From the IMG/VR virus record IMGVR_UViG_3300023184_000406, positions 1-29,206 of that record: a DNA stretch of 29,206 nucleotides, one strand, 5' to 3'. The position numbers and the translations under genes were made by a program. Positions 711 through 29,206 of the stretch are shown piece after piece; the stretch's first letter is position 1; each line of letters starts with the position of its first letter. The stretch is from a virus. A model generated the notes under the pieces. The model was not told where the DNA came from, did not search any database, and saw only the letters and a program-made list of their open reading frames with translations.

Positions 711-1475
711 TTAAACCTGCTGAATGTAGTTTACGGTTCCTGCGTTTGCACCAGTTACGTCTGTTGAAATAGTAGCAGGAAGTGCGTCAGCAGAAGAAAC
801 TATAATTATGACTCCGCCACCAGCGGGAGAAGTTGCTGGTGCTTTGATGTAGCCAGTTCCAGATGCAGGACCACTGATATAGCGAGCAGCAAGGATTACA
901 ATTCCTCCACCTGCTTGCGCAGTACTACCAGCGCCTCCACGAAGCCATGTAGGGCCTCCTGATGCTGTTATGGAGTATCCAGTAATTGCTTGTAGGGGTT
1001 GTTTGAAATAGTTAGAGCCGCCCAATGCAGCAATTGGTGCAGTTGCTGTATAGGTTGCAGTTGCGTTACCACCAAGACTGTGTGTTACTGAAGTCGTGGC
1101 TGCTCCACCTTGATAGATAGAACCACTAGTTGCATAGCCAGTCGTAAAGCCAACAATGGAACTTGTACCAAAACGTAAGGTGCCCTTAACAAAGATTCTA
1201 TATCCGTTAGGCGCAAGACGAACGCTGTTGCCCAATGTTAAATCATTGAAGTAGAGGTCAGTTGTCATGGAGTAGACACTTCCTGAAGGAATCATCCCTA
1301 AAACAGTAGTCGTGCCATCAAGGGTCGCATCGCCATCAGCGCCTGTTCCGTAAACAGAGTCAACGCCTTCGTTGTAATAGGCATTCCAAACAGAGCCGTC
1401 CCATTGCCAACTCTTAGAACCAACAGTATAAATTTGGTTTGTGTATGGAGAAGCAGGAAAAGTAATCGCTGGCAT
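711..1475 (-). CDS. Tail fibre / adhesin protein, glycine-rich beta structure
   Basis: This 254-residue protein starts at ATG 1475, which shares one base with the stop of the collagen-like gene before it (TAATG). The first 35 residues form a short module with an SWQWDGSVWN motif of the kind repeated in phage fibre proteins. Residues from about 38 (DSVYGTGADG) to 105 (NGYRIFVKGTL) match the N-terminal domain of the next gene. The remainder is rich in Gly, Ala, Ser and Thr with regularly spaced hydrophobics (GGGIVILAARY, GGGVIIIVSS), suggesting a beta-helix or beta-sandwich. No catalytic motif was seen. It is probably a host-recognition component assembled with the large fibre; the exact role is unknown. 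Confidence 0.7.
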   Translation of the reverse strand: MPAITFPASPYTNQIYTVGSKSWQWDGSVWNAYYNEGVDSVYGTGADGDATLDGTTTVLGMIPSGSVYSMTTDLYFNDLTLGNSVRLAPNGYRIFVKGTLRFGTSSIVGFTTGYATSGSIYQGGAATTSVTHSLGGNATATYTATAPIAALGGSNYFKQPLQAITGYSITASGGPTWLRGGAGSTAQAGGGIVILAARYISGPASGTGYIKAPATSPAGGGVIIIVSSADALPATISTDVTGANAGTVNYIQQV

Positions 1476-1479
1476 TACG
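1459..1479. repeat. 21-bp exact direct repeat, copy 1 (junction of two fibre genes)
   Basis: This stretch spans the TAATG stop/start junction between the giant fibre and the following adhesin gene, plus the first codons (MPAIT). An exact copy lies at 11083-11103, just after the spike-fibre gene. Confidence 0.8.
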
Positions 1480-4400
1480 CAGGACCTATGTCTTCAATCC
1501 AAAACAATTGTTCAGCAGACGATGCCCCAACAATAGCATCGGGGTTTGTGTTTAGTGCACCGTTTCCACCGCATCGCATATAAAGGGTAAAAGTTTTTGA
1601 TGCGCTCCCCGAAGTAACACCCAGCGAGGACGCATCGGTAATGTATGTACCCGTGATGTACTGGGGATAGTTTGCCAAAATTGTTTCTCCTTGATACCAC
1701 AAAGTTTTATTACTTCCACTGGTACTGGTAAAATACAATGCGTTGGCACCACTATTTGCTGATGGTTGAAAACCGAGAGAGCCACTAATACGGTATTTTC
1801 GTCCTGTTGTGATTGTTATTGATTTACTAAGAACAGCAAGTGGTGTGGTGGCAACAATTGCTGTTGTTGCGGTTGCACCAACACCATCAATAAAACCCCA
1901 AGGTGCATTCCAGGGTTTAGACCATGCAGAACCATCGTAGGTTAGTTCGTTTTTGGTATCTGTCTCATAGACATGTTGACCAGTCCACGGGGAAGAGGGA
2001 CGAGTAGTAGAAGTTGCTTGGTACGGCGACATTGTTCCGCCACCTAGTTCAACCCATGCTGAGTTGTAATAGATGTAAGAAGCACCAGTAGAAGTGTTAA
2101 ACCAAAGGTTGCCAGCAGATGGGGAAACTGGTGCAGTTGCAGAACTTGTTAGTGGAGCACCTGGACCCGTTGGTCCTGACACTCCAGTTGCGCCTGTTAC
2201 GCCAGTCGGTCCAGTGGGACCAGTCGCACCAGTTGTTCCTGAGACGCCTGAAACCCCAGACACTCCAGAAACACCACTAACACCACTAACACCACTTACG
2301 CCTTGGGGGCCAGAAACTGTTGAAGGTGTTCCACTGACACCCGAAACTCCAGATACCCCAGATACTCCTTGAGGACCAGTTGCGCCGATAACTCCCGAAA
2401 CTCCTGAGACACCAGAAACTCCAGACGGTCCAGTTGCACCGATTACGCCTGATGGACCACTAACGCCACTAACACCCGAGACTCCGCTGACGCCACTAAC
2501 ACCTTGAGGACCTGTGGCACCGATTACGCCTGACACTCCAGAAGGACCTGAGACTCCGGATACTCCTGAGACACCGGAAACTCCACTTACCCCCTGAGGT
2601 CCAGTTGCTCCTATAACACCACTAGGACCCGAAACTCCTGAAACGCCAGATACCCCAGAAACACCAGACACGCCACTAACTCCAGAAACACCTGAAATTC
2701 CACTAACACCACTTACGCCTTGTGGTCCAGTTGGACCTGTTGGGCCTACAGGTCCAATACCACCAGTCTCAACCCATTGAATATTGTCGGTGCCAATTTT
2801 AATAGCATTATTAGTAGCGGTACCAACTACAGTTTGAATATAGGTTCTACCAGCATGGTCGCCTGCTTCAACAAGGGTAAAGTCACCTGCTTCAACTTCG
2901 CCAGCAATGCTGTTGTCAAAGTCCGTTGCACGAGTGAACTTATATTTAGAACCAGCAGAACCAAGACTTGTTACGGTATAAATACCGTTTTCAATAGGGT
3001 TTGTTCGTCCCGAGAAAAGAACACGGTTTCCTACAATAATCGTTGCTCCGCCTGCTACAGAAATAGCACCGTTGGCATTTGCTTCAATATATGCACCGAC
3101 ACCGTAGCCTTCGCTTGCGTCTGCGGTTCCAGCAAAATAAGTGCTTGCGCCCATTGTGTCCACAACGGTTTTTACTGTTGCGTGAGCGTTTTGTGCTCCA
3201 GGAACACCGCTTACTCCACTAACACCACTAACTCCGGATACACCAGAAGGTCCACTCACACCACTAACACCACTTACGCCAGAAACACCACTGACTCCTG
3301 AAACGCCCGAGACGCCACTGACACCACTTACTCCCTGTGGTCCAGTCGCACCAACGACACCACTGACGCCTGATACTCCAGAAACTCCACTGACGCCTGA
3401 TACTCCAGAGACGCCAGATACCCCAGACACGCCTTGTGAGCCAGTCGGACCCGTGTCTCCAATGACTCCCGACACTCCCGATACTCCCGAAGGACCTGTT
3501 GCGCCAACAACTCCCGACACACCACTAGGACCCGAAACTCCTGAAACGCCAGATACGCCGCTGACGCCCTGAGGTCCTGTGGCACCGATTACACCCGAAA
3601 CGCCTGAAACGCCCGAAACACCCTGCGGACCAGTTGGGCCTGTAGCCCCAGTAGTTCCTGAAACACCGCTTACTCCAGAAACACCTTGTAAACCAGATGG
3701 TCCTGTTGCTCCCGTATCACCAGTAGTTCCACTTATTCCACTGACGCCGCTTACGCCTGAAACACCAGAAGGGCCAGTGGCTCCAACAACACCGCTAACA
3801 CCGCTAACACCCGAAACTCCGCTTGCACCATGTTCGGCAAATACCGTCCACCAAACACTTTCAGAAGGCGCTACTCCATCAATTGTTTGAATGCAAATCC
3901 AAGACGAACCACCATATGTAACTACATGGTTTGAGTAGTACTGTGCTCCGTTGTCGTACGCTCCACGGAAAGTAAAACCAATACCTGTGGCACCGCTTAC
4001 TCCAGAAACACCAGAAACACCACTTACGCCTGAAGCACCAGACGGTCCTGTAGCACCGATTACACCCGATACCCCCGATGGACCCGTGTCTCCAATGACT
4101 CCAGAAACGCCGCTTACACCAGAAACTCCAGATGGTCCTGTTGCACCAATAACACCGCTTACGCCGGAAACACCACTTACGCCCGATACACCGCTTACAC
4201 CAGAAACTCCTTGTGGGCCTGTGGCTCCAATAACCCCAGAAACACCTGATGGTCCAGATACTCCACTGACACCACTTACTCCCGAGACCCCCGAAACACC
4301 GCTAGGTCCAGTTGCACCAGTGTCGCCCTTGTCACCAGTGCGAACAAATGTAATAGTTACATCGGTACCGTTTGTCCACGAAGGCGAAGAGCCGGTAAGA

Positions 4401-5308
4401 AAAGAAATTGGAACCTTGTAGTAGGTAGATGCAAAAGTGTGAGAACCAGTAATTGCGTAGTAAACAAACTGCGACGATTCTCCTACTGCTTCTACTCTAA
4501 AGTGACCTTTAATTGCAGATGTTGAATCATCAATTGTGTCCAAGTACGCAGATACGTCGTTAGATGTAAAATCAATTGGGTCTATGTACAAAAATGTTGC
4601 ACTAGAAAATGTTGAATCAAATTTTAAGTTTGTTGCACCAGGGTCTGTATCTGACGTATTGGTTAGATAATTATAAGAGAATGTTGCGCCGCCAAATGAG
4701 CCGGTAAGTCCAGTCGCACCAACGACACCACTTACGCCCGAAACTCCAGAGACACCCGAGACACCCGAGACACCCGAGACACCCGAGACACCCGAGACGC
4801 CACTTGCTCCCTGTGGTCCAGTCGCACCTATAACGCCGCTGACACCGGAAACTCCAGAAACTCCAGAGATGCCACTGACCCCAGAGACACCCTGTGGTCC
4901 AGTTGGGCCAGTTGCGCCGATGACTCCAGAAACACCAGAAACGCCAGAAGGACCAGTTGCGCCGATAACGCCCGAAACTCCAGAAGGACCACTTACTCCC
5001 GATACGCCGCTTACACCAGAAACTCCAGATGGGCCAGTTGCGCCAACAACTCCAGATACTCCGCTAGGACCCGAGACTCCAGACACTCCCGAGACTCCAG
5101 AGACTCCAGAGACTCCAGATACGCCCTGTGGGCCTGTGGCACCAATGGGACCAGAACTATAAGGAAGAAGGCTCCAAACTTTGTCACCGTCACCTACTTT
5201 AAACTTACCTGTATCAGTTTCTAATCCAAGTTCTCCTACAGCAAGTTTTGGGTCTGAGCCAGTCCACTCTGCTGCGGTGCCGCGTCTAAGTTGAATCTGA
5301 ATAGCCAT
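1475..5308 (-). CDS. Giant collagen-like (Gly-Val-Ser repeat) tail fibre
   Basis: The protein has 1277 residues. The start is taken as ATG 5308, not the TTG three bases upstream, because AGGAGG (5315-5320) sits six bases before it and the ATG overlaps the previous stop (TGATG). Residues 1-50 ([26 protein letters not shown]) form an N-terminal domain common in phage fibres, probably for tail attachment. Four collagen-like stretches of GVS, GPS, GPQ and GAT triplets follow. They are separated by three globular domains: about 206-326; about 441-493, aromatic and carbohydrate-binding-module-like ([11 protein letters not shown]); and about 701-846, containing [21 protein letters not shown], a module also seen in the 6257-7555 fibre. 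The C-terminus has a shared [20 protein letters not shown] module and a unique beta-rich head of about 130 residues, the likely receptor-binding tip. The fibre role is well supported; the receptor is unknown. Confidence 0.85.
1921..2151. repeat. Diverged direct repeat of fibre C-terminal module, copy 1
   Basis: This segment encodes the [30 protein letters not shown] module and the following linker ([25 protein letters not shown]). It aligns without gaps to 11494-11724, offset by 9573 bases, with scattered mostly silent differences. The flanking C-terminal heads differ, so it marks a module boundary. Confidence 0.8.
2155..5155. repeat. Collagen-like coding repeats, four blocks
   Basis: The blocks lie at about 2155-2760, 3200-3835, 3990-4330 and 4700-5155. 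They are made of 9-bp units coding Gly-X-Y, mostly Gly-Val-Ser, broken by [12 protein letters not shown] and GDTGPS. Units mostly differ at synonymous positions, so the protein pattern is conserved more than the DNA. Read in the opposite sense they create long false open frames of Thr-Pro-Glu triplets. Confidence 0.9.
4749..4793. repeat. Perfect 9-bp tandem repeat, five copies
   Basis: Five identical copies of gagacaccc lie head to tail, followed by a one-base variant. Each copy codes one Gly-Val-Ser triplet on the minus strand. A shorter perfect run of gagactcca (three copies) lies at 5091-5117. Perfect copies within otherwise diverged repeats suggest recent slippage expansion. Confidence 0.9.
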
Positions 5309-6018
5309 CAAACACCTCCTGAATCAAGCGAAGTAATACCACCGTAATTAGTGGATGGGAAGCCCCCGTCTATATTAACAACAGAAGTACCCGATACACC
5401 GGTACTACCTGTAGCACCTGTGGGGCCAACGGGTCCGGAAGGTCCGGAAGGTCCGGAGGGTCCGGAAGGTCCGGCCTGTCCCCCAATTTCAACCCATTCA
5501 GAATTGTAGTAGACAAAAGTTTTACTAGTGTCGGACTCAAACCAAATCTGGCCAGCAACAGGGTTGCTTGGTGCGGTATCGGAGATTGTTGCCCCACCTG
5601 CGGCGCTAGCGTTCACCCATGCATTGCCATTCCATTGAAGAACTTGATTAGTGGCAATGTTTGTGATTGTTACGTCGGTTAAGTCATCAAGAGCAGCAAC
5701 GGTTGATGCAGTTCCTGGAGCAAATTTGGTTCCGTCAAATTTAAGTACTTGATTGCTTGCTGCACCAGAGGTATCTACTTCAATACCATCAATGTAAAGT
5801 ACGGGAACCTTGAGAGTGTCGTCTGTTTTGAGAACATTTGCCTCATCGCGATAGAGGTTTACGTCTCCAACGTTTGTTCCGTCGCCCCAAACCAGGCGTC
5901 CGCCACCTTGAACCTGGATTCTTGCATAGGTGTCACCGTCAACATAAATCGTTAACCCATCAGAGCCAGCAGATGACAACTGCCTAATAGCGATGGGGGT
6001 AATAAATTTCTGTGTCAC
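5308..6018 (-). CDS. Tail fibre protein with short Gly-Pro-Ser collagen segment
   Basis: This 236-residue protein begins with GTG at 6018 (translated MTQKFITPIAIRQL); no ATG lies between the upstream in-frame stop and this codon. AGGAAG lies 11 bases upstream and a closer GAGG is probably too near. The first half is a fibre shaft domain (YVDGDTYARIQVQGGG, VLKFDGTKFAPG, DDLTDVTI). Around residue 145 is the SDTAPSNPVAGQIWFESD / FVYYNSEWVEIG module shared with two other genes. A short collagen-like GPSGPSGPSG run follows, and the end contains NIDGGFPSTNYGG. It is probably a minor fibre or connector for the giant fibre that follows it. Its stop overlaps the next start. Confidence 0.75.
   Translation of the reverse strand: MTQKFITPIAIRQLSSAGSDGLTIYVDGDTYARIQVQGGGRLVWGDGTNVGDVNLYRDEANVLKTDDTLKVPVLYIDGIEVDTSGAASNQVLKFDGTKFAPGTASTVAALDDLTDVTITNIATNQVLQWNGNAWVNASAAGGATISDTAPSNPVAGQIWFESDTSKTFVYYNSEWVEIGGQAGPSGPSGPSGPSGPVGPTGATGSTGVSGTSVVNIDGGFPSTNYGGITSLDSGGV
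5315..5320 (-). promoter_or_regulatory. Strong Shine-Dalgarno for the giant fibre
   Basis: The minus strand reads AGGAGG six bases upstream of ATG 5308. It is a full consensus and decides the start. It lies inside the coding sequence of the upstream gene, where it specifies part of the C-terminal SGGV. Confidence 0.85.
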
Positions 6019-24907: not shown

Positions 24908-25459
24908 TTAACGGTCTTGGTTTGGTGGCGATTCTATTGCCAACATTGACGCAAGAGTCCCTGGAGGAGCCTCTACAGGCACCCAAGCACGAGAATATTT
25001 ATGCTCAGAAATCTTTCTATTTTTCAAAAGGTTTCCGTCAAGCATTAAGTCAAACTCGTCTTTTTTCATCGCAAGTTGCCGATTAAGGCTTTCGCGATTG
25101 GATTTCCCAGAAAAAACCAATTCTCTAATTACTGTTGACATTGGCTTTGCAACAATAGAACTTCTCCCACGATTTATTCGCAGGTGCATGAGCATCGCCT
25201 CGTACTTGTCGCAATCAATAAAAACAACAGGAACAAAACTTTCACATTTTGCAATAATTGTTTTTTGGTTTTTGGCAAGCATTAACCGTTCATTGCCATC
25301 AATTACTTCCATAGTTGAGCGATGGACAATAATCGGAATAATGAACCCAAAGTCCTCCAAGGACGCCGCCAGAACCAGAAGGTCAGGGCGAAGTATGTAG
25401 GTGGTTTTGTATGGGGCAATCTTAAGTTCGTCTGTACTAACCATCTCATAGTTGGTCAT
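24908..25459 (-). CDS. ParB-like N-terminal domain protein 2
   Basis: The protein has 183 residues and overlaps the PAPS-reductase-family gene by 14 bases. It shows the ParB/Srx fold order: APYKTTYILRPDLLVLAASL, EDFGFIIPIIVHRSTMEVID, GNERLMLAKNQ, PVVFIDCDKYEAMLMHLRIN, RGRSSIVAKPMSTVIREL. The Asp-Gly-Asn-Glu-Arg core corresponds to the ParB box with its Arg kept. A C-terminal helical region follows (NRESLNRQLAMKKDEFDLML). No DNA-segregation partner (ParA) is present, so a partition role is unlikely. It probably binds DNA or nucleotide together with the neighbouring PP-loop protein. Confidence 0.8.
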   Translation of the reverse strand: MTNYEMVSTDELKIAPYKTTYILRPDLLVLAASLEDFGFIIPIIVHRSTMEVIDGNERLMLAKNQKTIIAKCESFVPVVFIDCDKYEAMLMHLRINRGRSSIVAKPMSTVIRELVFSGKSNRESLNRQLAMKKDEFDLMLDGNLLKNRKISEHKYSRAWVPVEAPPGTLASMLAIESPPNQDR

Positions 25460-26597
25460 AGTGTTCTCCTTCTAGTACTTGTTCTGCTGCTTTATGCCTA
25501 AGAGTGTTGGCTTTGGTTTTTGGCCCAACTGGCGCTGCTGCTGAAACGTTAATCTCGTTCATTAACAAGTTTCTAATCAGCCAGTTGATGGGATATGAAA
25601 AAGGGTCAGTGACGTGTTTGCGCCGAAAGTCAGCAACGTAAGATTTTGCACGACGCCTATCATCTTCCCCCAAAAAGTTTTCTTCAATACAGCGTTTAGC
25701 CCCATTAAATCCGTCTTTTGCATAGTCATCAATATATTTTTCAATATTGAACTCTGGCCACCAGCGACGTTGTGCATCTATATTGGGCCAAATCTTTTCA
25801 AGTTTGTCATAGAACTCTGGCTCAGTAGCAACAAGGTCTCCTATTCGGCGAATTGCCACACAATGAAGCGGAATGCCGACACGAGTATTTGAACCAGTCA
25901 AAGCAGCGAGGTCGTAGTACTCACAATATTCGGCATTGTGTTCTTCTGAAATAAATTTAAATACATCATCTGTCTGCCAGTCATAGATGACCTTTGCAAA
26001 CTTCAAAGGGATGGATTTCTTCATTCTGTATGGAGACACGATGTAGTTCTCATGAAGTTTTTGAACAAGAGAGCGATAGCGAACCATTGACTCATTCGCA
26101 CGAACTCCGGTTATGAAAGCAACAGAGCCTGTCTTGCCTTGCATCGTATAGTAGTCAATTGACTCTTTAAGCGGCTCGTCTTCATCAAGACCAAAGTGAT
26201 TTACATTGATTGCCCACTCAGGCATCTCCCTGACCCATCTGCCTTGCTTGCGTCGTTCAGGACCCCACATAACAACCGGCGTGCGATTTCCAAGAACCCA
26301 TACTTCAGAACCGGAAGGGAGGCAATACCACTCCAAATCAACCCAGTCATAGTTACGAATTTTGTTTACATAGTCCACAACAAGAGGGCTGACCATTTCT
26401 TCGTCTCGGAAGATTACTTTGACTGGTCCGAGTCCTCGTTCTTCATGAACTTCTTTAGCCAAGTAAAGCACTGCTGTGCTATCTTTTCCTCCAGAAAACT
26501 GAACGCAAACAGTATCAAAAGTATCATAAACGTGCCTTATCCTCTGTCTTGCAGCCTCTACACAATCAATGTCAAGAAACATCCTCTGTCTGGTCAT
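25446..26597 (-). CDS. PAPS-reductase-family PP-loop protein (IbrA-like)
   Basis: The protein has 383 residues. Residues 31-41 (CVQFSGGKDST) are the PP-loop that binds the phosphates of ATP or PAPS. Further family features are VIFRDEEMVSPLVVDYVNKI, the SVAFITGVRANESMVRYRSL segment, and a C-terminal region (WQTDDVFKFISEEHNAEYCE, RVGIPLHCVAIRRIG). No paired-cysteine [4Fe-4S] motif of true APS/PAPS reductases is visible, so sulfate assimilation is unlikely. The layout fits the IbrA/DUF3440-like group that travels with ParB-like partners. Proteins of this type are suspected of DNA modification or regulation; this is family knowledge plus inference. TAATG overlap with the upstream small gene. Confidence 0.82.
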   Translation of the reverse strand: MTRQRMFLDIDCVEAARQRIRHVYDTFDTVCVQFSGGKDSTAVLYLAKEVHEERGLGPVKVIFRDEEMVSPLVVDYVNKIRNYDWVDLEWYCLPSGSEVWVLGNRTPVVMWGPERRKQGRWVREMPEWAINVNHFGLDEDEPLKESIDYYTMQGKTGSVAFITGVRANESMVRYRSLVQKLHENYIVSPYRMKKSIPLKFAKVIYDWQTDDVFKFISEEHNAEYCEYYDLAALTGSNTRVGIPLHCVAIRRIGDLVATEPEFYDKLEKIWPNIDAQRRWWPEFNIEKYIDDYAKDGFNGAKRCIEENFLGEDDRRRAKSYVADFRRKHVTDPFSYPINWLIRNLLMNEINVSAAAPVGPKTKANTLRHKAAEQVLEGEHYDQL

Positions 26598-26776
26598 TAG
26601 TATTTCACAATCTGAGATAAACGTTGGTTCTCCGCACGAATATTGTCTATTTCGCGGTTAAGTCTTATATTATCCATATTCAACCGAATTAGTTCATCTC
26701 TACAGGCAATAGTGAGAGACATTGCTTCTTCGGGGTCAGTGCACCAATACAGTTTTTCTATAAGTTCATCAAACAT
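26597..26776 (-). CDS. 59-residue coiled-coil protein between ParB and PP-loop genes
   Basis: The frame runs from ATG 26776 to TAA at 26597-26599, sharing one base with the next start. The product begins MFDELIEKLYWCTDPEEAMS and continues LTIACRDELIRLNMDNIRLN, REIDNIRAENQRLSQIVKY. Its second half has a leucine-zipper-like heptad pattern (Leu, Ile, Asn, Ile at regular spacing). It fills the gap between two cassette genes exactly, which argues that it is real. Coiled-coil dimerisation or bridging of its neighbours is an inference. No family was recognised. Confidence 0.65.
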   Translation of the reverse strand: MFDELIEKLYWCTDPEEAMSLTIACRDELIRLNMDNIRLNREIDNIRAENQRLSQIVKY

Positions 26777-26782
26777 GACGAC

Positions 26783-27580
26783 TTAAATTTCAATATGCTG
26801 GTCTACGAAATCAATCAATTTTTCAGCGGTTGTATTTCCAGCGATTGCAGGGTCGTTGCGAAGCCAGCGCACGAATTCATACCAGCGAGCCTGCTGTTGA
26901 GGGTTGTCAAAGACTATTGTGTATTGAACTACAGCCTGTGGAGCGTTACCGGCGGCAGTCATGGTGCTTCCCTTTACGGCAAGTTCACGATGGTCCTCAG
27001 AAGAGGGAGCAATAATGCGTCGCTCTCCATCTTCATCTTCTCGCACTAGTGAGGTAAGAGCCTGTGCTGTTGCCTCCGCAGCAGCATTAATGAGAGGCTG
27101 AAGTACTGGAGTGATATATGAAGTTGAAACCCCATCAGACCATTTTTGCGCATCTGCATGCTCGCTAATTTCAGCAAGTTCAAACTCGTCCCAACCAAGA
27201 CCATCTAGGAGTTCAGGGTAAATATCAGAAACATCTACAAGCATTTCGTTAAGGGCAGACTGTTCTGTGTGACCAAGTTCCATGGTGCGGTTGTCTGCTA
27301 AAGCAAAAGCAATAGCACGAGAATTATCTGCATCAAAAACGACAGCAGCAATATGTGTCCACCCAAGTTTTTTGGCGGCTTCCATCTGATGGTTGCCAGC
27401 AATAACAGTTGAAGTTCCGTCATCGTTTGGCCTGATGACGATTGGCTTTACTTGACCAAATTCAACATAGGAAGAAGTAATCGCAGAGATATTGCCTCGG
27501 CGTGGGTTTCCCTCAAGAGGGACAAGAGAATCTATTGGGACAAGGAGTGATTCAATGTCTTTGGATACGTTATATTTCAA
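26783..27580 (-). CDS. ParB-like N-terminal domain protein 1 (IbrB-like)
   Basis: The protein has 265 residues and starts at TTG 27580 (overlapping the previous stop), since no ATG lies in the first domain; AGGTG is just upstream. Residues 1-95 are a ParB/Srx domain: PIDSLVPLEGNPRRGNISAI, FGQVKPIVIRPNDDGTSTVI, AGNHQMEAAKKLGWTHIAAV. In the nucleotide-binding box the usual Arg is Gln (GNHQ). A middle segment (AFALADNRTMELGHTEQSAL, LPELLDGLGWDEFELAEIS-like) is usual for phage ParB-like proteins. The C-terminal part, with QYTIVFDNPQQQARWYEFVR, is a small alpha/beta extension. It pairs with the PP-loop protein as IbrB does with IbrA. Confidence 0.85.
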   Translation of the reverse strand: MKYNVSKDIESLLVPIDSLVPLEGNPRRGNISAITSSYVEFGQVKPIVIRPNDDGTSTVIAGNHQMEAAKKLGWTHIAAVVFDADNSRAIAFALADNRTMELGHTEQSALNEMLVDVSDIYPELLDGLGWDEFELAEISEHADAQKWSDGVSTSYITPVLQPLINAAAEATAQALTSLVREDEDGERRIIAPSSEDHRELAVKGSTMTAAGNAPQAVVQYTIVFDNPQQQARWYEFVRWLRNDPAIAGNTTAEKLIDFVDQHIEI

Positions 27581-27924
27581 TGTGACACCTGTGCTCTCAC
27601 GTTGGCGTTAAGCGTACGCATTGCATCAATGGAGGCACGCAGGGATAAAAGTTTTTCACGCTTTGACTTGACAAGAGCCTCAGCAATCTTGTAATCAAAG
27701 TTTTCGTCAGCAAGTTTATAGTCTGCCCACGCTTCACGTTCTTTAATTGAACCCTTAGCAGAAAGATACTCTTTTGCCCAGTTCGCTTTATACAAAGACT
27801 CTTTTTTGGCATTGTCTTCAGCAAGAGACTCAAAAGCCTCAGTGTGCTCTTCAAGCATTTCAATTAAACGCAAAATCTCATGTTCAATATCCACTTGACT
27901 AATAGGACTATTACGCGAAATCAT
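27577..27924 (-). CDS. Coiled-coil protein of unknown function
   Basis: This 115-residue, almost fully helical protein has GGAGAAAA before ATG 27924, and overlaps both neighbours (14 bases with the RuvC-like gene, 4 with ParB 1). The sequence EHEILRLIEMLEEHTEAFES, LAEDNAKKESLYKANWAKEY, FDYKIAEALVKSKREKLLSL shows long heptads without glycine or proline breaks. Small helical proteins of this kind often stand beside RuvC-like genes in phages. A role in recombination, replication or as adaptor is only inferred from position. Confidence 0.65.
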   Translation of the reverse strand: MISRNSPISQVDIEHEILRLIEMLEEHTEAFESLAEDNAKKESLYKANWAKEYLSAKGSIKEREAWADYKLADENFDYKIAEALVKSKREKLLSLRASIDAMRTLNANVRAQVSH

Positions 27925-28447
27925 TTTTCTCCATTAAGTTTTCCATTGGCGACCAATCTATCTTTTCAAAAGCAGAAAGTTGTTCTTTTGTCCACTGATA
28001 TGCAGATAAACCCATTTTAGTTAAAGCCATCTGTTCAAGAACCCATGCATCACATTCGTCGTTTCCCGAAGCGCCATTAAAAATAATGCCAGTCTTTGCC
28101 GAAATGGCAGAAATAACTTCGCCTTTAGATGCGTTGCCTCGTCCAGTTGCAAACTTTGCACGACATGTGGGGGGTATTTCAACAATTGCAATGTTGCATT
28201 CAAACAGCGTCATTCGGACACAGCCACCCAATTCACCGATACTGAATGCTTGTCCACTTCGGGAAGCAAATGAGTAGCCCTCAATAATCACGCAGGCTAT
28301 TTCGTTTTCTAAGCATTTATGCAGTATGCTCTTGGTCACTTCGGAAAGACGCTCAGCACCTCGGGTCTTGGGCTTTATAACGCTGGTTTTTTGGTTTATG
28401 GATATACCTGTTGATGTTAAAGATAAATCAAGGCCCATAAAGTTCAT
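27911..28447 (-). CDS. RuvC-like Holliday-junction resolvase
   Basis: The protein has 178 residues, the usual RuvC size. It keeps the four acidic catalytic positions: Asp7 in MGLDLSLTSTG, Glu56 in CVIIEGYSF, and Asp130 with Asp133 in NDECDAWVLEQ. Other RuvC-like segments are ARSGQAFS-like SRSGQAFSIGELGG and FATGRGNASKGEV (Lys108), which fit the phage branch. It would cut branched DNA made during recombination or packaging. A weak ribosome site precedes ATG 28447, and ATG 28438 (MGLDLS) is an alternative start. It is the first gene of the leftward block. Confidence 0.88.
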   Translation of the reverse strand: MNFMGLDLSLTSTGISINQKTSVIKPKTRGAERLSEVTKSILHKCLENEIACVIIEGYSFASRSGQAFSIGELGGCVRMTLFECNIAIVEIPPTCRAKFATGRGNASKGEVISAISAKTGIIFNGASGNDECDAWVLEQMALTKMGLSAYQWTKEQLSAFEKIDWSPMENLMEKNDFA

Positions 28448-28597: not shown

Positions 28598-28868
28598 ACA
28601 TGGAATTTTAACAATTAATACCACGAGGTCGGAGGTGCTTGTTGACGATATTGATATGGTCCAATATTCCATGACTATGTCTATTCAGAATATTGATGAA
28701 ACTGGAGTAATTTATCTTGGTGACAGCACAGTCACCGCAGAAGACTATGGTTATGCACTTGTCCCGGGGGATTCATTTACGTTAGACGATGTTGGTCGTC
28801 GCCCTGGTCTTTACGCCATATCTGACGTAAATGGGACACAAGCCGCCGTAATAAGGATTTCACAATAA
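28587..28868 (+). CDS. Small beta-rich protein, possible structural protein
   Basis: ATG 28587 is chosen over an upstream TTG at 28539 because GAAGGA lies seven bases before it. The 93-residue product is predicted beta throughout ([80 protein letters not shown]). This pattern suits small virion surface or decoration-type proteins. Its stop overlaps the start of the collagen-like gene (TAATG), tying the two together. Structural role is inferred. Confidence 0.65.
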
Positions 28869-29206
28869 TGAAAATTGGAGGAAACGGTGGAGGCATCCCA
28901 GGACCTCGCGGACTTCCCGGCAGGTCAATAAATTTTAAAACCGCTGTAGCAACATTCAGCGCTTTACCCGCTGGCTCTGAAGATGATGCACGAATTGTTC
29001 TTGATGAGGGCCATATCTATATTCACAATGGATTTTCGTGGGTAGATGGTGGTCAGTTTCAAGGACCAGATGGTGCCACAGGCGCAACTGGTCCTACTGG
29101 TATTACTGGCCCAACAGGTGCGACTGGTGCGACTGGTGCGACTGGTGCTACTGGTGCTACTGGTGCTTCCGGTGCTTCCGGTGCTTCCGGTGCTTCCGGT
29201 GCTTCC
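28868..29206 (+). CDS. Collagen-like fibre protein, N-terminal part, cut by window edge
   Basis: The reading frame runs from ATG 28868 (overlapping the previous stop) for 113 codons to the last base. It begins [20 protein letters not shown], then a domain with [40 protein letters not shown], a pattern common at the start of phage fibre proteins. It then goes into collagen-like [19 protein letters not shown] and ends in five perfect GAS units. It is probably a virion fibre expressed separately from the main tail block. The C-terminal end is not visible. Confidence 0.75.
29162..29206. repeat. Perfect 9-bp tandem repeat at the window end
   Basis: Five identical copies of ggtgcttcc (Gly-Ala-Ser) run to the last base. 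The true copy number is unknown because the window stops here. Confidence 0.9.

Follow-up and report, generated by a model that had tools for sequence, protein, structure and literature searches.

What function brings a PP-loop protein of the PAPS reductase family together with two different ParB-like proteins in a phage genome? The question is raised by positions 24908-28447 of the IMG/VR record IMGVR_UViG_3300023184_000406, a 29,206-base record of an uncultivated virus (the whole stretch, a 29-kb fragment, is called the window here) that carries contractile-tail genes (tail sheath, baseplate). An earlier note on this DNA had described six overlapping or nearly overlapping genes next to tail genes, and this description holds: six open reading frames (ORFs) lie in a tight run on the minus strand, at the coordinates noted earlier and listed below, with overlaps between neighbours of 14, 4, 1 and 14 nucleotides and one gap of 6 nucleotides, and head-tail adaptor, neck and tail-sheath genes follow downstream. 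We propose that three of the six, coding for a longer ParB-like protein (ParB-L), the PP-loop protein and a short ParB-like protein (ParB-S), form a phage DNA-modification cassette, a prediction from gene position that we hold at a probability of about 60%. The run comprises:

27911-28447, minus strand: RuvC-like resolvase (phrog_159, 6.9e-31)
27577-27924, minus strand: 115-amino-acid helical protein (phrog_1389, 1.5e-12)
26783-27580, minus strand: ParB-L, TTG start (ParB_N, 9.8e-9; phrog_723, 3.5e-39)
26597-26776, minus strand: 59-amino-acid helical protein (phrog_3671, 5e-4)
25446-26597, minus strand: PP-loop protein, 383 amino acids (PAPS_reduct PF01507, 1.5e-9; phrog_2302, 5.8e-79)
24908-25459, minus strand: ParB-S, IbrB-type (phrog_2159, 4.5e-29; Pfam alone only 0.11)

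Conservation of the trio and its gene order

Gene order was compared across 80 viral loci obtained with the PP-loop protein as query, further viral loci added by a second profile scan and 80 loci found by scanning bacterial and archaeal genomes; one profile each for ParB-L, PP-loop and ParB-S was run against all of these, and counts are of distinct loci with room for the neighbour. In 99/112 distinct viral loci the gene that immediately follows the PP-loop gene is ParB-S, whilst ParB-L, the 115-amino-acid protein and RuvC are each present upstream in 57/71: the gene order of the cassette far exceeds chance, and the lack of a conserved order, which the earlier note had named as a refutation, was not observed. 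Within the window's phage group, a stable block is formed by RuvC, the 115-amino-acid protein, ParB-L, a variable insert, PP-loop, ParB-S, adaptor and neck genes. The insert may consist of the 59-amino-acid protein or one of its relatives, of other small proteins, of ThyX or of a histone-deacetylase-like protein, or be missing altogether: a ThyX thymidylate synthase occupies it at L030:8286-8975, and histone-deacetylase-family proteins do so at L067:1959-2822, L077:8470-9405 and L084:8587-9468 (Pfam-tested in L077). The coiled-coil link of 59 residues, which the earlier note had counted as part of the arrangement, does not persist, as this protein was found only in very close relatives and is elsewhere often replaced or absent; the coiled-coil proteins were rejected as core parts because they are variable or absent in relatives. 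The 115-amino-acid protein is a conserved neighbour in the window's phage group only, and none of the cultured trio phages searched showed it. The RuvC-like resolvase, a conserved neighbour, probably serves general DNA metabolism; in the Bclasvirinae, a RuvC-like gene is located just past the terminase.

Outside the window's group, the trio is found in Arthrobacter Laroyevirus, Mycobacterium prophi79-1, Gadjet and many relatives (mycobacteriophages), Rhizobium RHph_I4 and Bacillus 055SW001, with PP-loop identities of 31-37% and often with the terminase next to the trio; several trio phages exhibit a small methyltransferase between trio and terminase. In Laroyevirus a second, longer ParB-L gene is present at the left end (L007:226-1422) besides the trio. 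In two large contigs, of 106 kb and 138 kb, all three genes are retained but lie tens of kilobases apart, and the remaining checked loci without ParB-S lie on contigs of 14-44 kb that are possibly fragments. The neighbours of the PP-loop gene in the dispersed contigs are a pyrimidine-dimer glycosylase (at L147:5582-6004, directly before the PP-loop gene) and an SNF2 helicase, with no modification enzyme amongst them. In a tree of 88 PP-loop proteins, built by a quick method and exhibiting long branches, all trio members fall into one strongly supported clade that is separated from the bacterial IbrA type with 100% support in the Shimodaira-Hasegawa-like approximate likelihood ratio test (SH-aLRT). 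The bracketing of a PP-loop protein by two ParB-like proteins, which the earlier note had singled out, is therefore a conserved feature of one PP-loop clade rather than an oddity of this contig, and the ParB-L / PP-loop / ParB-S core is a genuine unit of great age and wide conservation, of which we found no description in the openly licensed literature.

A genomic slot shared with DNA-modification genes

For the proposed link of the trio to DNA modification, the ParB partner is the most telling lead. In the Bclasvirinae, what lies between gp1 (ParB) and the terminase varies by genus: the slot holds DpdA-QueC-QueD-QueE-FolE (preQ0 synthesis) in Hedgerow, preQ0 synthesis with DpdA likewise in Saguaro, a Tet/JBP-like gene with an amino acid:DNA transferase (ADDT) and a P-loop kinase in JAMaL, a Tet/JBP-like gene with a deacetylase in Baee, and PP-loop plus ParB-S in Gadjet. 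The flanks of this slot are orthologous, with Gadjet gp1 ParB 47-50% and the Gadjet terminase 58-60% identical to their counterparts in Hedgerow, Baee and JAMaL. Because proven modification pathways thus occupy the position of the trio, we read the trio as a modification cassette as well: in Rosebush, around 28% of G is present as dPreQ0 and the DNA resists several restriction enzymes (PMC6884629). The Rosebush-type preQ0 cassette (ParB-DpdA-QueC-QueD-QueE-FolE) shares with the trio the slot, the orthologous ParB and terminase and, in the Bclasvirinae, the proximity of RuvC, whereas the trio has the PP-loop protein and a second ParB and lacks DpdA/Que genes.

The same association is seen beyond this subfamily. 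Relatives of ParB-L were sampled down the hit list (a hand-spread sample) and their neighbourhoods read: 12/18 of the non-trio neighbourhoods contain a recognised or likely DNA-modification gene, a count that does not cover the background rate near random phage genes. A ParB-L relative precedes Mom in Appa and Martha, Tet/JBP with a glycosyltransferase in Altadena, and DpdA pathways (DpdA/QueC-E) in Finch and StAugustine; in AnarQue it adjoins ADDT, and in Shambre1 and others the relatives are themselves annotated as DNA methyltransferases. One contig of the window's phage group, G009 (L262:2355-3964, the contig of L038), has a 209-amino-acid ParB gene overlapping a Tet/JBP-type dioxygenase gene that scores above the Pfam cut-off, which makes a second candidate for ParB-linked modification within a single genome. 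Published work agrees, with ParB-domain proteins described beside carboxymethylcytosine enzymes and as ParB-methyltransferase fusions, their role being stated as unknown (PMC12783734), and a ParB gene reported within a predicted thymine hypermodification set (PMC11955845). The ParB partner family of the trio thus recurrently accompanies phage DNA-modification enzymes, and the trio shares both this ParB and its slot with DNA-modification cassettes. Our reading draws on each of these associations and also on the small methyltransferase before the terminase in some trio phages, on the retention of all three genes where they are dispersed, and on the distribution of the PP-loop profile, which is absent from 13 phages with other ParB-linked cassettes and present in 5/5 trio phages. 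Compared to the Tet/JBP, ADDT and kinase cassettes for thymidine/cytosine hypermodification, in which a ParB of the same family stands directly before the modification genes and often near the terminase, the trio has different enzymes and presumably a different chemistry.

Among 20 large related contigs, no C5-cytosine methyltransferase (0/20) and a single N6/N4 methyltransferase (1/20) were found; as methyltransferase genes are nearly absent, no candidate for a modification system stands out more clearly than the trio in most of these contigs. A mutual-exclusion test using the PF01702 TGT/DpdA search was uninformative because this search misses the annotated gene even in Hedgerow. Two sets of annotations deserve comment. 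The label 'queuine tRNA-ribosyltransferase' on JAMaL gp2 (L258:785-1759, PHROG 6059) and Baee gp2 (L261:819-1697, from the record) looks wrong, since the Pfam signal there is a sub-threshold Tet_JBP match; genes labelled 'adenylate kinase' before the terminase were noted at L240:6481-7023, L256:2512-3057 and L258:2834-3460, and those of AnarQue and JAMaL match PF18751, P-loop nucleotide kinase 3, which suggests that they are hypermodification kinases; an equally named gene occupies this position in Ottawa.

Predicted chemistry and competing explanations

Both ParB proteins exhibit features of the ParB CTPase fold, an N-domain of this fold with conserved nucleotide motifs. In ParB-L, the N-terminal CTPase-type domain (model residues 11-143 match the CTP-analogue-bound ParB 7bnr, Z 14.3) is followed by a low-confidence linker and a conserved C-terminal domain with the motif YTIVFDxPxQQxRW..F.RWL. 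In ParB-S, the nucleotide motifs of the ParB N-terminal domain are intact (xPI; GxER at 55-58; INR at 95-97), and D54, G55, R58, N96 and R97 are conserved from phages to bacteria; its profile matches the solved ParB 4umk (2.2e-6 over positions 14-144), and the stretch after the nucleotide motifs corresponds in the alignment to the Spo0J helix-turn-helix region. The PP-loop protein, the predicted catalytic core of the cassette, belongs to the ATP-pyrophosphatase fold class, of IbrA type without DUF3440: its AlphaFold model (mean predicted local distance difference test score, pLDDT, 88.4) is closest to the PAPS domain of FAD synthase (Z 16.9) and to PAPS reductase (Z 14.6), followed by other PP-loop enzymes, and the residues SGGKDS, D65/E67, R166, E169, S170, R173, D206, W207 and D211 are invariant.

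That the protein could be a true PAPS reductase serving auxiliary sulfur metabolism is suggested by its PF01507 match and by the routine annotation of such genes, yet the ECGxH tail with the catalytic cysteine is absent, as are any CxxC or CC pair and an Fe-S pair, no cysteine is conserved across the whole family from phages to bacteria (C31, C92 and C225 are invariant only within the window's phage group), and its ParB partners are constant. The earlier note had remarked on the missing Fe-S motif and judged sulfate assimilation unfitting: both points stand, and we have rejected sulfate assimilation as almost certainly wrong. Sulfur transfer more generally is not favoured, because there is no family-wide cysteine and no phage cysteine desulfurase was found (PF00266: 0/20 large related contigs, with control genomes 14/14 positive), although a host enzyme could still serve; the missing cysteines and PAPS-reductase features argue against it. 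The conserved chemistry suggests an adenylation of the kind known from the FAD synthase or TilS folds, in preference to a dedicated cysteine-based sulfur transfer.

This also bears on the phosphorothioation systems Dnd, Ssp and BREX-4, whose DndC, SspD and BrxP proteins are PP-loop enzymes of the PAPS-reductase type as well, and on a role in nucleotide sensing or counter-defence, for example against Dnd-type phosphorothioate defence or nucleotide depletion. Dnd systems often include the ParB-superfamily protein DndB, and an action on nucleotides has been suggested for proteins of the ParB/Srx fold (PMC10853773); the phage PP-loop protein is also weakly similar to DndC/BrxP. However, the phage cassette lacks DndA/D/E, its PP-loop family lacks the family-wide cysteine and its contigs the desulfurase, and the match to the DndC equivalog model, strongest over the N-terminal PP-loop region, reaches 31.5 bits against a curated cut-off of 290.4 bits. 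DndC membership was rejected on this score. No association with defence genes was seen, and we regard a sensing or counter-defence complex as highly improbable: of the roles suggested in the earlier note, DNA modification gains strong positional support and these two gain none that is specific. Scarcely better placed is a function in packaging, in which ParB clamps and the PP-loop protein would join terminase, RuvC and head genes in processing the genome: most relatives do have the trio next to a terminase or a head-tail adaptor gene, and RuvC is in the same gene run, but some genomes have it elsewhere or dispersed, and sister phages package their DNA with modification genes replacing it.

The main rival is transcription control. 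By sequence and adjacency, PP-loop and ParB-S form an IbrA/IbrB-type pair, to which the 14-nucleotide overlap of the two genes in the window conforms, and the comparison drawn in the earlier note is borne out by the bacterial IbrA-type genes, which have an adjacent IbrB-like gene directly after them in 71/71 loci with room. IbrA/IbrB and E. coli YbdN/YbdM share the PP-loop core, its invariant motifs and the same kind of short ParB, whereas the phage trio forms a separate clade, adds the longer ParB upstream and lacks the C-terminal DUF3440 domain: this domain is carried by the bacterial IbrA-type genes examined and missing from the trio clade members examined (PF11922 matches L194 at 3.3e-32, L168 and L163, and was not found in the window protein, L160 or L161). 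With the Citrobacter pair as query, E. coli genomes gave no match. Transcription activation by IbrA/IbrB is known only from the genetics of E. coli ECOR-9. According to PMC7649339, which cites Sandt 2002 for it, IbrA/IbrB activates eib genes. By analogy, PP-loop and ParB-S would switch on genes, in this case the late genes of the phage, and ParB-L would be a further regulator that binds DNA; IbrB enhances Eib expression, YbdM of E. coli has been catalogued as a putative transcription factor, a helix-turn-helix-like region is present in ParB-S, and CTP-binding ParB-fold repressors such as KorB exist. What this explanation leaves unaccounted for are the catalytic PP-loop residues and the proven modification pathways in the same slot of sister genera, and we consider it unlikely, although the two readings would be compatible if transcription responded to the mark.

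Several points weigh against DNA modification as the function of the trio. The named pair that comes closest, IbrA/IbrB, has to our knowledge no described function other than the activation of eib genes. The mark in trio phages is predicted from genes alone, and the cassette in the window contains no precursor-synthesis gene. Amongst the 18 neighbourhoods, a modification gene is evident in none of four (DalanDe, Gray, Abba, JNU_P11), with two more ambiguous (Jace, AnClar).

If the trio is nonetheless a DNA-modification cassette, the ParB proteins would load onto phage DNA in a nucleotide-dependent manner, ParB-S through its helix-turn-helix-like region, and would bring the PP-loop enzyme to it; the enzyme could then use ATP to adenylate a group on the DNA or on a precursor, with another group replacing the AMP, and the marked DNA would be packaged and resist host nucleases. 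On the most likely reading of its position in relatives, such a mark would shield phage DNA from bacterial defences. More tentatively, it is possible that this is an ATP-activated, ParB-guided modification new to phages, using an IbrA-type PP-loop enzyme without dedicated sulfur-carrier cysteines, and that bacterial IbrA/IbrB likewise modifies DNA with a mark that alters expression, which would offer a possible biochemical explanation for an unexplained pair. One large clade of PAPS-reductase-like phage genes, usually filed under sulfur metabolism, is thereby moved towards DNA modification, the virion DNA of Gadjet-type, Laroye-type and Bacillus 055SW001 phages is predicted to be modified, and ParB proteins emerge as a partner common to a wide variety of phage DNA-modification enzymes; what they do there has been stated as unknown (PMC12783734).

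Other features of the window

No near-identical relative of the window phage was found among cultured phages. No ParA turned up among the window proteins scanned, no search aimed at ParA having been made, and a scan for sigma-70-type promoters and terminators gave sites no commoner than in shuffled sequences. Two collagen-like ORFs are present away from the cassette: a tail-fibre gene with collagen-like repeats (1475-5311, 1278 amino acids), and a second ORF at 28868-29206, on the opposite strand, that runs off the contig end.

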